DNA of 39,608 nucleotides from Propionicimonas sp. (GTDB lineage Bacteria; Actinomycetota; Actinomycetes; Propionibacteriales; Propionibacteriaceae), in contig NZ_JARKPQ010000205.1 in assembly GCF_029975155.1 (NCBI RefSeq), positions 1 to 39,608 on the forward strand, in the 5' to 3' direction. Under the pieces are notes generated by a model. That model was not told where the DNA came from and ran no database searches. It was given only the letters and a program-made list of their open reading frames with translations. The number at the start of each line of letters is the position of its first letter. Positions within the stretch are counted from its first letter, which is position 1. Positions 2,852 to 27,573 of the stretch are shown in pieces. The position numbers were made by a program, and so were the translations under genes.

Positions 2852-3809
2852 GTTCACGCCCGCGCCCCTCGATCGAACGGCGCCGTTCTACGTCGCGGGC
2901 CATCGCGGTCTGGTCGGTTCCGCCATCTGGCGCACGCTCGAGTCGGCCGGCTTCACCTATCTGGTCGGCGCCACGTCGGCGGAGCTGGATCTTCGGGATC
3001 GACCCGCGGTCTTCGACTTCCTGCGGAAGGTCCGGCCGCGCTACGTGGTGCTCGCCGCGGCGAAGGTGGGCGGCATCCTCGCGAACAACACCTATCCGGT
3101 GGATTTCCTCAGCGAGAATCTGCAGATCCAGACCAGCGTGCTGGACGCCGCCGTGGACGCCGGGGTCGAGAGGCTGCTGTTCCTGGGTTCGTCCTGCATC
3201 TACCCCGCGCACTCGCCTCAGCCGATCAAGGAGGAGTACCTCCTCACCGGGCACCTGGAACCGACCAACGACGCGTACGCGATCGCCAAGATCGCCGGGA
3301 TCCTCCATGTGCAGGCCGTCCGGCGGCAGTACGGACTGCCGTGGATCTCCGCGATGCCGACCAATCTCTACGGCCCGGGCGACAACTTCTCGAAGGCCGG
3401 ATCGCACGTCCTGCCGGCGTTGATCCGTCGCTACGAGGAGGCGGTGCACAACCCCGGCTCGCCGGTCGTGAACTGGGGCTCGGGCACTCCGCGGCGCGAG
3501 TTCCTGCACGTCGACGACATGGCACGGGCGTGCCTCTTCCTGCTGGAGCACTACGACGGACCGTCCCAGGTCAACGTGGGCACCGGCTCGGACGTCACGA
3601 TCCGCGAGCTCGCCGAGATGGTGGCGCGAGCGACCGGCTATGCGGGCGATGTGGAATGGGACCTCAGCAAGCCGGACGGCATGCAGCGCAAGCTGCTCGA
3701 CGTCGGCCTGCTCACCTCGCTCGGGTGGCGTCCGCAGGTCGGCCTGGAAGCCGGCATCGCCGACGTCGTGAGCTGGTACCGCACCCACGGGGCGGACGCG
3801 AGGCTCTAG
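2844..3809 (+). CDS. fcl: GDP-L-fucose synthase
   Basis: Epimerase/reductase that turns GDP-4-keto-6-deoxymannose into GDP-L-fucose, the donor for fucosylated surface glycans. The protein has 321 residues, normal for the family. Seen in order: the Rossmann loop [10 protein letters not shown] near residue 19, AAAKVGGI, the SSCIYP active-site segment, and AYAIAKI with the catalytic Tyr and Lys near residues 145 and 149. NLYGPGDNF and [12 protein letters not shown] follow. ATG 2844 lies inside the end of gmd. No fucosyltransferase can be named nearby, so where GDP-fucose is used (possibly the island starting near 6 kb) is inferred. Confidence 0.95.
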
Positions 3810-3821
3810 TAAGGGGCACCA

Positions 3822-3913
3822 ACTCCGGATGTCAGTTTCGACGAAATTCTGACTTCACGAGCGACGAATCTGGGATTTCAGTTACGACGGATCTGGGATT
3901 TCGGGACGATGGG
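3822..3913 (+). repeat. Array A: four 23-bp tandem direct repeats
   Basis: Four contiguous units at 3822-3844, 3845-3867, 3868-3890 and 3891-3913 with no spacers. Units 3 and 4 both begin ATCTGGGATTTC; units 1 to 3 all end CGACG plus a purine, and units 1 and 3 share TCAGTT before it. Similarity decays with distance from the gene: unit 1 matches unit 3 at 16 of 23 positions by hand count. The array ends four bases before a TATGCT box and a broken DUF4143 gene. The same architecture recurs at 21977-22068. The likely role, operator or protein-binding iteron, is inference. Confidence 0.8.
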
Positions 3914-3917
3914 GACA

Positions 3918-3923
3918 TATGCT
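3918..3923 (+). promoter_or_regulatory. -10 box TATGCT for the DUF4143 remnant
   Basis: TATGCT fits TANNNT and is followed by exactly six bases and GTG 3930, the arrangement of a leaderless transcript. Its -35 region would fall inside the last 23-bp repeat. Confidence 0.5.
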
Positions 3924-3929
3924 GCCGTG

Positions 3930-4109
3930 GTGACCAGCTATCGTCCCCGCGTCGCGGATGCCGAACTGCACTACCTGATGGACTTCATGGGGGCCGTCCT
4001 GATCGAGGGCGCGACTGCTTCCGGCATGGCAGCGGCGTCCTCGCCAGGAGCCGCGACAACGCGGCAACAAAGTAGGCGCGTCAGCGCAGCCGCGCCTTAT
4101 TGTCCTTGA
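3930..4109 (+). pseudogene. Truncated DUF4143/AAA ATPase, 5' remnant
   Basis: The frame from GTG 3930 begins VTSYRPRVADAELHYLM and continues FMGAVLIEGATASG. The complete ATPase encoded at 20689-21963 has KYRPRVIDEALRRAL and AGAVVIEGARASGKT at the same place, so this is a homologue. Resemblance stops exactly where the Walker A lysine and threonine should follow Ser-Gly. After that the frame is low-complexity and runs into the 3' end of the NYN gene, stopping at 4109. Only about 30 codons are left, yet promoter and repeat array are intact. It is a decayed or truncated gene, not a functional ATPase. Confidence 0.68.
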
Positions 4110-20576: not shown

Positions 20577-20629
20577 GATCCACCGATTGAGCGCGTCTCG
20601 ACAAGCTCGACGAGCGGTTTCGGTGGATC
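20577..20629. terminator. REP-containing inverted repeat between convergent genes
   Basis: Outer arms GATCCACCGA/TCGGTGGATC are perfectly complementary over ten bases and enclose a REP-like copy (20593-20617, GTCTCGACAAGCTCGACGAG). It sits between the stops of the WbaP-like and DUF4143 genes and could fold in either transcript, so it probably works as a bidirectional terminator. Confidence 0.55.
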
Positions 20630-20688
20630 AGGGCTGAGATCCCGAAGGTCGCGACGCGGAGTCGCGCGCGGCGCCTCCCGTCGCAGAG

Positions 20689-21963
20689 TCACGGGGCAAG
20701 CGCGGCAAGCGGGGCTGTCACCGTGCCGTCGTCCGTGACCAGAGTCGGCCCCGTGCCCGTCACGACGAGGCGGAATGCCGGCTCACCTACCACCTGGGCA
20801 TCGATCTGGGCGAGCACATGGTTCAGTGTCTCCACGGCATACGGCAACTGGGCGCCAGCAAGCTTCACTTCGACAGCGCCCCAGCGTCCATCCGGCAGAG
20901 TGATGACCGCATCAATCTCGTTACCGTAAGAGTCGCGGTAGTGCCTCACCTCTCCGTCGATCGCTGTGGCGAGAACCGTCAGGTCATGGATAACCGCGCT
21001 CTCGAACAACACACCGAGCGTCCTCAGGTCACCCCGAAGCTGTTTGTGCCCAGCCCCGAGCACCGCAGCGGCAAGCGCGGGGTCCACCAGATGCAGCTTC
21101 GGCGAGGTGCGCACCCGGGCCCGCGAACGTAGCGCTGGCGTCCATGGTTGTTGGGCTTCGACGATGAACAGCCGCTGGAGCAATCCGACGTAGGTGCTCA
21201 CGGTCTCGGGGGTGATGGCTGGCGCCACAGCACGAAGGTCGGTCGCGAGTGTCTTGAAGGTGACCTCTGAAGCAACCGAGCGGGCCAGCGCCACGATGAG
21301 TTGCCTCAAGACCTCCGGTTCGTGGCGGACCTCGGCGATCCGGTGGATGTCGACGCGCGCGACATCACCAACGTAACCGCGCAGCCGGTCCGCCGACTGC
21401 GTCGGCGTGAGTTCAGTCATCGCCGGGAAACCCGGACGCAGCAGATTCCCGATCATGGCGTCCAACTCGGACGCGTCAAGATCGGTCGACGGCCGGTTGC
21501 CGTCAAAGAGACCCGCGAGGCTCACAACGCCCGGCGGCGTATCAAGCTTCTCCCACCACGACATGGTTCGTTGGCGTAGCCGCAGGAAGCGCCCGGCGCC
21601 GGTATGCCGGGTGATGTCGTCCACAGGCACAGCGGACCCGGTGAGGATGAACCGTCCTGGCTCGACTGACGCGTCCACGGCACGCCGCACCAGATTCCAC
21701 AGTTCCGGGGCAAGCTGCCACTCGTCCAGCAGTCTCGGCGCCGTGCCTTCGAGCAGCGAGCGTGGTGCGATCTCGAGCAGGCGCCGAGCCTCGGAATCAT
21801 CGATGAATGCGTACGAACCCGCAGCATGCATCGCGGTCATGGTCTTGCCGCTGGCACGCGCCCCCTCGATCACGACGGCGCCAGCAGCAGCCAGAGCGCG
21901 ACGCAGCGCCTCGTCGATCACGCGGGGCCGGTACTTACGTCCGAGTGCCTTCACCGTGTCCAT
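20689..21963 (-). CDS. DUF4143 ATPase: AAA domain plus PD-(D/E)XK-like domain
   Basis: 424-residue protein. The AAA part has Walker A GARASGKT (Gly34-Thr41), Walker B LLDEWQ (Asp80-Glu81) and a sensor-like FILTGSA. A helical middle follows, then the DUF4143 domain with a nuclease-like signature EIDAVI ... WGAVEVKLAG, the Asp ... Glu-x-Lys pattern of PD-(D/E)XK enzymes. The family is common in bacteria and archaea and its cell role is unsettled. ATG 21963 lies six bases after a TACTGT box; the five-codon upstream extension is unlikely. Four 23-bp direct repeats lie directly upstream. A truncated homologue with the same upstream plan lies at 3930. Confidence 0.88.
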   Translation of the reverse strand: MDTVKALGRKYRPRVIDEALRRALAAAGAVVIEGARASGKTMTAMHAAGSYAFIDDSEARRLLEIAPRSLLEGTAPRLLDEWQLAPELWNLVRRAVDASVEPGRFILTGSAVPVDDITRHTGAGRFLRLRQRTMSWWEKLDTPPGVVSLAGLFDGNRPSTDLDASELDAMIGNLLRPGFPAMTELTPTQSADRLRGYVGDVARVDIHRIAEVRHEPEVLRQLIVALARSVASEVTFKTLATDLRAVAPAITPETVSTYVGLLQRLFIVEAQQPWTPALRSRARVRTSPKLHLVDPALAAAVLGAGHKQLRGDLRTLGVLFESAVIHDLTVLATAIDGEVRHYRDSYGNEIDAVITLPDGRWGAVEVKLAGAQLPYAVETLNHVLAQIDAQVVGEPAFRLVVTGTGPTLVTDDGTVTAPLAALAP

Positions 21964-21969
21964 GCGGTG

Positions 21970-21975
21970 ACAGTA
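21970..21975 (-). promoter_or_regulatory. -10 box TACTGT for the DUF4143 gene
   Basis: On the minus strand TACTGT is followed by exactly six bases and ATG 21963, and starts two bases after the last 23-bp repeat. The -35 region is therefore inside the repeat. Confidence 0.55.
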
Positions 21976-21976
21976 C

Positions 21977-22068
21977 ACTCCAGGCCGAGGATTGCAGACG
22001 CCCTAGGCCGAGAATTGCAGACACTCTAGGCTGAGAGTTGCAGATGTCCTAGGCCGAGGATTGCAGAC
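21977..22068 (-). repeat. Array B: four 23-bp tandem direct repeats
   Basis: Units at 21977-21999, 22000-22022, 22023-22045 and 22046-22068, head to tail without spacers. Read on the minus strand each has TCTGCAA at positions 2-8, a CTC block and GCCT at 15-18. Three of four carry CCTAG; variation is mostly at positions 1, 9-10, 14 and 20-23. Conservation is much higher than in array A. Array A units share TCTGNNAT with these units at the same phase. The array fills the space between the DUF4143 promoter and the end of the upstream glycerophosphodiesterase gene. Confidence 0.88.
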
Positions 22069-22093
22069 CGCAGTTCCCACGACCACCGACTCT

Positions 22094-22819
22094 TTATACC
22101 TCGCCACGCACCCTTGCCGCCACACCGGGGACGTCGGTGAACACTCCGTCGGCGCCCCAGGCGAACATGCGCGCCAGACCCCGCGTGCTGTTCACCACCC
22201 ACGGACGCACCGCGAGACCCGCCGCGTGCGCCTTGCGCACGTAGCCCGGGCCGAGCAGGTAGCGGACGGGCGGGTGCAGCGCGGCCACGCCGAGCCTCGC
22301 CGCGTACCGCCACGGCTTGTACAGCGGGTCGGTGTAGAGCATCGCCAGCTCGGTCGGGGCGCCCAGCTTCCGCAACCTCCGCAGCGAGTAGTGGTTGAAC
22401 GTCGACAGCACGACCCGCTCCGCGATGCCGTACTGGGCGACCGCCGCCAGCACCTGCTCCTCGAGCCCCGGATAGGCCTCCTCCGAGTTCTTCAACTCGA
22501 TGTTCAGCCTGAGCCCCGTGGGCACGAGCAGGTCCAGCGTCTCGGCGAGCGTGGGCACGCGGACGCCCGCGTAACCCGGCCGGCCGCCGGACGCATCGAG
22601 GGTGCGGACGTCCGCCAGCGTCGTGGCGGCCACGGGCCCCCGTCCGTCCGTGGTGCGGTCGAGGGTCTCGTCGTGCAGGACGACCACCGTGCCGTCCGCC
22701 GTGAGCTGGACGTCGAACTCGACCCCGTCCGCGCCCTGGGCCACCGCCAGCTCGAACGCGGGGAGCGTGTTCTCCGGCGCGTCCGCGCGTGCGCCCCGGT
22801 GCGCCCAGATCAGGGTCAT
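22094..22819 (-). CDS. Glycerophosphodiester phosphodiesterase
   Basis: 241-residue GDPD TIM barrel that hydrolyses deacylated phospholipids to glycerol-3-phosphate and an alcohol. Catalytic and metal residues are in WAHRGARADAPENTL, GVEFDVQLTADGTVVVLHDETLDRTT and LNIELKN; the C-terminal WVVNSTRGLARMFAWGADGVFTD is the usual end. There is no signal peptide, so it is a cytoplasmic type. ATG 22819 follows AGGAG at a good distance; ATG 22831 upstream is possible. A REP-like copy lies just ahead of the start. The gene ends 26 bases from array B. Confidence 0.93.
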   Translation of the reverse strand: MTLIWAHRGARADAPENTLPAFELAVAQGADGVEFDVQLTADGTVVVLHDETLDRTTDGRGPVAATTLADVRTLDASGGRPGYAGVRVPTLAETLDLLVPTGLRLNIELKNSEEAYPGLEEQVLAAVAQYGIAERVVLSTFNHYSLRRLRKLGAPTELAMLYTDPLYKPWRYAARLGVAALHPPVRYLLGPGYVRKAHAAGLAVRPWVVNSTRGLARMFAWGADGVFTDVPGVAARVRGEV

Positions 22820-22837
22820 CAGGCTCCTCATGCGTCG

Positions 22838-22862
22838 GGGTCTCGACAAGCTCGACCAGCGA
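22838..22862 (+). repeat. REP-like element copy 3
   Basis: GTCTCGACAAGCTCGACCAG core between the divergent GDPD and DUF885 genes. Confidence 0.7.
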
Positions 22863-27514: not shown

Positions 27515-27573
27515 ACCGCTGGTTGGGCTTGTCGAAACCGAGCGACAGGGTCTCGACAAGCTCGACCAGCGGT
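27515..27573. repeat. Inverted pair of REP-like elements between dhaK and transaldolase gene
   Basis: Left copy 27515-27539 and right copy 27549-27573 are complementary at 22 of 25 positions, with a nine-base loop. A transcript through the operon would form a strong hairpin here, which could lower expression of the last gene or protect the upstream mRNA. Confidence 0.7.

Follow-up and report, generated by a model that had tools for sequence, protein, structure and literature searches.

A Putative Cognate Array in Front of an AAA_14-DUF4143 Gene

We analyzed a 39,608-nucleotide stretch of Propionicimonas sp. DNA (contig NZ_JARKPQ010000205.1, hereafter the window) and found a tandem array of four 23-bp units directly upstream of a gene for a predicted ATPase-nuclease of the AAA_14-DUF4143 type. 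The array is probably the cognate binding site of the adjoining protein, and the two together would form a compact cassette that is likely mobile and autorepressing. Related genes in bacteria and archaea also had such arrays, and since these are gene-specific and change with residues of the predicted DNA-binding domain, it is likely that every protein binds the array of its own gene, probably as a means of regulating its expression. An earlier note on this DNA had suggested that the protein itself recognises the array, for autorepression or as its target; recognition is well supported in silico, by covariation and by rules that held in held-out loci, and the repressive sign of the regulation is what we infer from array position.

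As the earlier note had described, the units abut head to tail with no spacer (Table 1), which both the sequence and the program TRF supported (period 23, 3.8 copies, score 118); their core columns were TCTGCAAYYCTCRGCC. A single base (21976), not two as had been stated, separates the array from TACTGT, and the six bases between this box and the ATG (21963-21961) were counted correctly. An alternative GTG start at 21978 would add five residues to the protein. On the other side, the array is 25 bp from the end of the GDPD gene. A lag scan of the window (39.6 kb, 789 overlapping segments of 170 nt) detected a strong unique lag of 23 nowhere but in this array and at 3751-3902.

In the 5.0-Mb genome of the same organism, the core motif with 0-1 mismatch matched only the four units. 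Additional targets in this genome were considered and rejected, since up to two mismatches gave 14 matches versus 9 for a backwards control, and so was a genus-wide element (9 of 95 relatives had one isolated one-mismatch match each, with no clusters). Two further DUF4143 genes above the cut-off were present in the genome, both with three repeats at 23-bp spacing in the same position and of different sequence (the last repeat of one paralog, L001, was partial). No Rfam match at gathering scores was found in the window, which argued against a structured RNA and, together with the abutting units that leave no unique spacers, against a CRISPR-like array.

Table 1. Features of the window that bear on the arrays and the DUF4143 genes
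Feature	Position	Strand	Basis or remark
Tandem array, four 23-bp units	21977..22068	-	Sequence, TRF, lag scan
Array unit 1, GTCTGCAATCCTCGGCCTAGGAC	22068-22046	-	Read from sequence
Array unit 2, ATCTGCAACTCTCAGCCTAGAGT	22045-22023	-	Read from sequence
Array unit 3, GTCTGCAATTCTCGGCCTAGGGC	22022-22000	-	Read from sequence
Array unit 4, GTCTGCAATCCTCGGCCTGGAGT	21999-21977	-	Read from sequence
TACTGT, candidate -10 box, TANNNT type	21975-21970	-	Sequence
AAA_14-DUF4143 gene, 424 amino acids from ATG at 21963	20689..21963	-	Domain and PADLOC PDC-S01 profiles
GDPD gene, upstream neighbor	22094-22849	Same as AAA_14-DUF4143 gene	
Predicted winged helix, residues 216-292	21088..21318	-	AlphaFold2 model
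Codons P252 and E253, start of predicted recognition helix	21205..21210	-	Coupled to columns 16 (252) and 18/19 (253)
Codon R283, predicted wing	21115..21117	-	Coupled to column 9 (Arg with G)
Codon S345, nuclease-domain loop	20929..20931	-	Coupled to columns 8 and 9
Second 23-bp array, three units	3834..3902	+	TRF, lag scan (strong place 3751-3902)
Truncated N-terminal remnant of another DUF4143 gene, behind second array	3930..4079	+	tblastn

Occurrence of Arrays in the DUF4143 Family

Homologous genes were examined in the 170 nt that end at a conserved N-terminal codon, using lags of 12 to 40 and the best 40-nt self-match, with a score of at least 26/40 designated strong; counts are given relative to the loci fetched, the genomes searched were samples and the scored candidates per genome were limited. 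In the order of the window's organism, 23 was the unique best lag in 107/109 loci and the score at this lag was strong in 85/109, compared to 0/108 far-upstream and 2/106 downstream control regions. A set of 80 named loci, including Actinomycetota, Bacillota, Bacteroidota, Chloroflexota, Spirochaetota, Kiritimatiellae and methanogens (many are metagenome-assembled genomes, MAGs, whose taxon labels may be wrong), had this unique best lag in 72 of 75 usable loci and no strong lag 23 in 74 downstream regions. Corresponding numbers for a phylum sample were 24/28, with only 12/28 strong and 0/28 strong downstream. Among 120 later loci, collected around one genome each of Prevotella, Treponema, Methanobrevibacter and Gardnerella, at least six of which were genes met before (L383, L403, L417, L437, L479, L486), 105 of 110 usable ones had the unique best lag of 23 and 100/110 were strong, versus 2/109 downstream regions. 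Left out of these counts were L034, L059 and L082 (window's order), L137, L144, L173, L174, L203 and L221 (named and phylum sets), and L402, L427-L432, L443, L460 and L471 (later set); L243, L249, L250, L252, L259 and L274 were dropped from a separate computation. When the homologous upstream regions were shuffled by mononucleotide, only 2 of 2180 trials gave a score of 26/40 at any of the lags.

Strong unique lag 23 was rare in the flanks of the named loci (10 of 7439 segments), and five of the ten cases were located at further DUF4143 genes. A lack of upstream repeats in homologs, or repeats equally frequent at unrelated genes, had been named in the earlier note as grounds against its proposal, and the observed distribution is the opposite of both; its actinobacterial framing proved too narrow, as the trait spans bacteria and archaea. 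By eye, the other four of the nine cases inspected looked like arrays with no such gene nearby (L183 about 1800-1900, L134 about 7800, L148 about 2400 and L147 about 11200; tblastn with sampled family members at E 1e-8). The one in L183 had units like those of the L183 gene 4 kb away. These four arrays are possibly relics or second sites.

Unit sequences were gene-specific and differed even between paralogs of one genome. Some genomes contained many family members, with at least 37 DUF4143 matches in G708, at least 32 in G736 and at least 28 each in G733 and G719, the last being a methanogen-related archaeon.

Comparison of a tree of 332 proteins with array period (scores under 25/40 were considered weak) showed that spacing follows clade. 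The window's clade (256 proteins) had period 23 in 212 cases, weak arrays in 40 and other periods in 4. A second clade (43 proteins of the RKPLxLxGARQVGKTW type) had period 33 in 24, 32 in 5 and 16 in one, with 13 weak; its 32-33 bp arrays (L260-L262, L269, L271 and further loci to L358) have a longer core, which often contains AAAAxTGT. In a mixed clade of 33 proteins, the period was 31-33 bp for 12, 22-23 bp for 8 and another value for 2, and 11 had weak arrays. Units of a third group (31-32 bp) were partly palindromic. With 10.5 bp per turn, 23 bp correspond to 2.19 turns and 33 bp to 3.14, about one turn apart.

Organization of the Repeat Unit

Circular alignment (197 of 254 loci used; another computation used 168 of 212) revealed a core at columns 7-20, where copies of one array agreed at 0.73-0.90 over the 197 arrays. 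Within this core, columns 7-9 and 14-20 varied between genes (agreement 0.26-0.42) and flanked a CAA at columns 10-12 that was common across genes (0.59-0.79). The remainder of the unit included a T followed by an A-rich stretch (columns 22 and 0-3) and freer letters at columns 4-5 (within-array agreement 0.56-0.59). A palindromic operator was rejected, as over 145 non-redundant arrays no dyad center had a ratio above 1.12 and no column pair a z above 2.1; the units are thus asymmetric sites in direct orientation, and their core is gene-specific. Some single units, mainly in another clade, look palindromic by eye. It had also been proposed that units of about two helical turns line up on one face of the helix; at 2.19 turns, each unit is instead turned by about 69 degrees relative to the one before it, and the units do not share a face.

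Covariation between Array Bases and Protein Residues

Variable bases of the unit covaried with residue 252, where the predicted recognition helix begins, residue 283 in the predicted wing and residue 345 in a loop of the nuclease domain. The rules were fixed before the held-out loci were examined, new arrays were registered with the training matrix only, and loci more than 80% identical to the training set were left out, so that 63 of 103 arrays were kept. P values are from Fisher's test, which assumes independent loci, and related loci are not independent. Arg or Lys at 252 occurred with G at column 16 in 19/23 loci versus 8/40 of the others (p=1.5e-6), Arg283 with G9 in 12/14 versus 3/49 (p=1.4e-8), Lys345 with G8 in 15/18 versus 6/45 (p=2.5e-7) and with C9 in 17/18 versus 15/45 (p=7e-6), and Asn345 with T8 in 8/10 versus 20/53 (p=0.016). 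A further rule, Glu252 with C16, was not confirmed in these 63 loci (7/19 versus 8/44, p=0.1), and coupling of residue 253 to G18 had one case only, leaving residue 252 as the sole position of the recognition helix with held-out support. When identity was capped at 65% (29 loci), the two main rules, for 252 (12/15 versus 1/14, p=9.5e-5) and 283 (7/9 versus 3/20, p=0.0021), and Lys345 with G8 (2/2 versus 2/27, p=0.015) were retained, and Lys345 with C9 (p=0.11) and Asn345 with T8 (p=0.67) failed.

Couplings as strong as those of the winged helix were also observed far from it, between residue 36 (Lys or Arg of Walker A) and columns 14 and 20, and between residue 123 and column 1. These may reflect clade structure or oligomer contacts.

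None of 135 same-genome pairs reached a similarity of 0.8 in the variable columns. At 55-70% protein identity the same-genome mean was 0.33 (24 pairs) versus 0.46 in the comparison set (889 pairs), and at 40-55% there was no difference; the pairs depend on one another, and the same gene carries both identifiers in L205/L282, in L200/L310 and in L168/L289. Such values are only suggestive of insulation of paralog arrays from one another.

Predicted Structure of the ATPase-Nuclease

The window protein scored above Pfam gathering cut-offs for DUF4143 (PF13635, 103.2 bits, cut-off 28.1) and AAA_14 (PF13173, 36.1 bits, cut-off 27), and PADLOC profile PDLC04790 (PDC-S01) matched its residues 11-427 with E 1.8e-67. 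Among 70 sequences, G34, G39, K40, D80, E81 and D351, which belong to Walker A/B and the nuclease, were invariant, and T41, E321, E349, E365 and K367 were at least 90% conserved. The nuclease is predicted to be intact.

An AlphaFold2 model (mean pLDDT 95.2, pTM 0.94), built without knowledge of the arrays, contained a winged helix in which helix 252-264 is the third helix of a helix-turn-helix preceded by 216-242, and a loop between two strands (273-288) includes R283. These are the predicted recognition helix and, at about 273-288, wing. In the C-terminal alpha/beta part, the model placed residue 345 in a loop that precedes E349 and D351. The best solved fold relatives were archaeal AAA+ ATPases (2qen, 2fna), followed by NLR resistosomes and CED-4; DNA-bound ORC/Cdc6 entries were among the Foldseek matches with low TM-scores (0.19-0.25). 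No solved relative was found by sequence at E up to 1, and a viral fold library gave AAA and clamp-loader matches only, with low TM.

Probable Mobility of the Cassette and Position at the Promoter

Window DNA was similar to that of three distant taxa, Patulibacter (20670-22066), Nesterenkonia (20693-22081) and a Micrococcales MAG (20688-22068), over the array and the gene, where similarity ended, and no other gene was present in the shared stretch. In total nine loci were compared: similarity to L136 also reached the array, that to L025 covered part of it, and that to L024, L026, L027 and L137 covered the gene only. GDPD-bearing loci of genus relatives had DUF4143 in 0/28 cases (some are cut by contig ends) and a DUF885 gene beside GDPD in 18/28, so the window copy was probably gained at this place.

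The median distance from array end to start codon was 18 nt in the window's order (61/109 loci measurable), 17 in Methanobacteriales (25/28), 21 in Treponema relatives (20/24), 27 in the Gardnerella order (23/29), 41 in the named set (53/75) and 65 in Prevotella relatives (25/29). In the window's order, only 25 of 61 loci had a TANNNT box 3-12 nt before the start. By eye, actinobacterial and archaeal arrays adjoin or cover the likely core promoter, and those of several Bacteroidota lie immediately upstream of it. The family arrays are direct repeats at or over their own core promoter. From this position we infer occlusion, and with it repression, as the simplest common interpretation; activation instead is possible, at least in Bacteroidota.

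Other Repeats in the Window

It was the second array in the window that located the DUF4143 remnant behind it (best tblastn E 7e-11, 53% over 53 amino acids to a family member). Array and remnant (3834-4079) adjoin GDP-sugar genes. A 9-bp tandem with consensus CTCGACAAG was detected by TRF at 20597-20615, 22842-22860 and 27552-27570 and looks like a dispersed actinobacterial repeat.

Discussion

Under autorepression by cognate binding, protomers would bind the units head to tail via the winged helix, such that Arg or Lys at 252 recognizes G at column 16, Arg283 recognizes G at column 9 and residue 345 recognizes columns 8-9. Because all units have the same direction and no dyad, bound protomers would be arranged in a staggered row that follows the DNA and winds partly around it, and the AAA domains could lend this row cooperativity. 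Such a row beside or over the core promoter would keep expression low, and loss of protein from it would raise expression.

Binding by the own protein could also serve mainly as an assembly platform and safety catch for the nuclease, in which the NLR-like ATPase would be held inactive on the array, its own DNA ligand, until a trigger such as phage infection causes its re-assembly or release, expression control being secondary. The covariation of columns 8-9 with residue 345, which is beside nuclease residues E349 and D351, is consistent with this idea, as are the nearest folds besides the archaeal ATPases (NLR resistosomes and CED-4) and the listing of the gene by PADLOC as a defense candidate; however, every array found here was at a promoter region or start, like an operator, and we regard this alternative as unlikely. 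It is still less probable that the array is an operator of another regulator, or a promoter feature, and that its correlation with the protein reflects joint inheritance only. Joint inheritance alone does create correlation, an A-rich stretch and the CAA recur across units, and couplings also occur far from the DNA-binding domain. On the other hand, a single other regulator would favor one sequence, whereas paralogs of one genome differ in their arrays, and the covarying residues include the recognition-helix start and the wing, follow Arg/Lys-to-G chemistry and retain held-out support at the 65% identity cap.

Iteron arrays of plasmids also have units of about two turns. This likeness, the ORC/Cdc6 initiators among the Foldseek matches and the mobile appearance of the cassette would fit an iteron-like origin or mobile-element end, with the ATPase acting in replication or transposition, but a strong lag-23 repeat was present at the 3' end in only 0/74, 2/106 and 2/109 downstream regions, the shared stretch contains no other gene, and at least 37 copies occur in one genome, on chromosomal contigs; we consider this explanation very improbable. 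A transposon-like element was rejected likewise, as no related array was found at the 3' end of the gene beyond 2/106, 0/74, 0/28 and 2/109 regions (inverted ends were not searched for separately).

Cognate binding by the adjoining protein may be part of a broader picture, which we offer only tentatively: mobile NLR-like ATPase-nucleases of bacteria and archaea might each keep a private promoter array that acts both as silencer and as scaffold for assembly or safe-keeping of the nuclease, with an amino-acid-to-base code and a clade-fixed spacing of about two or three turns. Private arrays and such a code would allow dozens of copies per genome without cross-talk.

According to the available part of PMC12988326, PDC-S01, an ATPase fused to a PD-(D/E)XK domain, is abundant in bacteria and archaea and is the fourth most common defense across prokaryotes (9986 archaeal and 29 494 bacterial cases), with experimental validation pending for most PDCs. 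The accessible sections of PMC12988326 and PMC13356809 treat the AAA_14-DUF4143 gene as an abundant, unproven defense candidate, and a Thermus DUF4143 gene appears in a table of expression changes in the portion available of PMC4406477. We found that nearly every usable gene examined of the window-type PDC-S01 clade carries a gene-specific DNA array. Through the arrays, this family gains a predicted ligand per protein, a rule that links residues to bases and a mark for degraded copies, by which the remnant in this same window was exposed. If binding is true, the family also offers many natural operator-protein pairs that differ from one another, located next to promoters of bacteria and archaea alike. 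The literature searched gave no pointer to such arrays; bioRxiv and the PDC-defining paper were outside its coverage, so an earlier description is possible.

Comparison with Known Systems

By PADLOC profile PDLC04790 the window gene is a member of PDC-S01; the array is a difference, being unmentioned in the available text of PMC12988326. A precedent in layout is RptR, which, in the accessible part of PMC12255303, is likewise linked to defense and acts cooperatively on head-to-tail direct repeats in its own promoter. RptR is a 9-kDa dimer that autorepresses a defense island through fixed 9-bp repeats with a 6-bp palindrome, whereas the arrays described here have 23-bp asymmetric units diversified per gene, and their predicted reader is the ATPase-nuclease itself. 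An assignment to RptR-type 9-bp repeats with a palindromic core was rejected on the unit length and the lack of a dyad over the 145 non-redundant arrays. ORC/Cdc6 proteins on origin repeats share the combination of AAA+ and winged helix and were among the Foldseek matches; in contrast to them, the window family has a nuclease domain, no sign of an origin and only low TM-scores (0.19-0.25). Compared to STAND/NLR ATPases (2qen, 2fna, resistosomes and CED-4), a C-terminal nuclease replaces the sensor repeat domain and the predicted ligand is DNA. Iteron plasmids also place direct repeats in tandem, each about two turns long, next to the gene for the binding protein, but in the window family no replicon feature was seen, with no search aimed at one, and the family occurs in many chromosomal copies.
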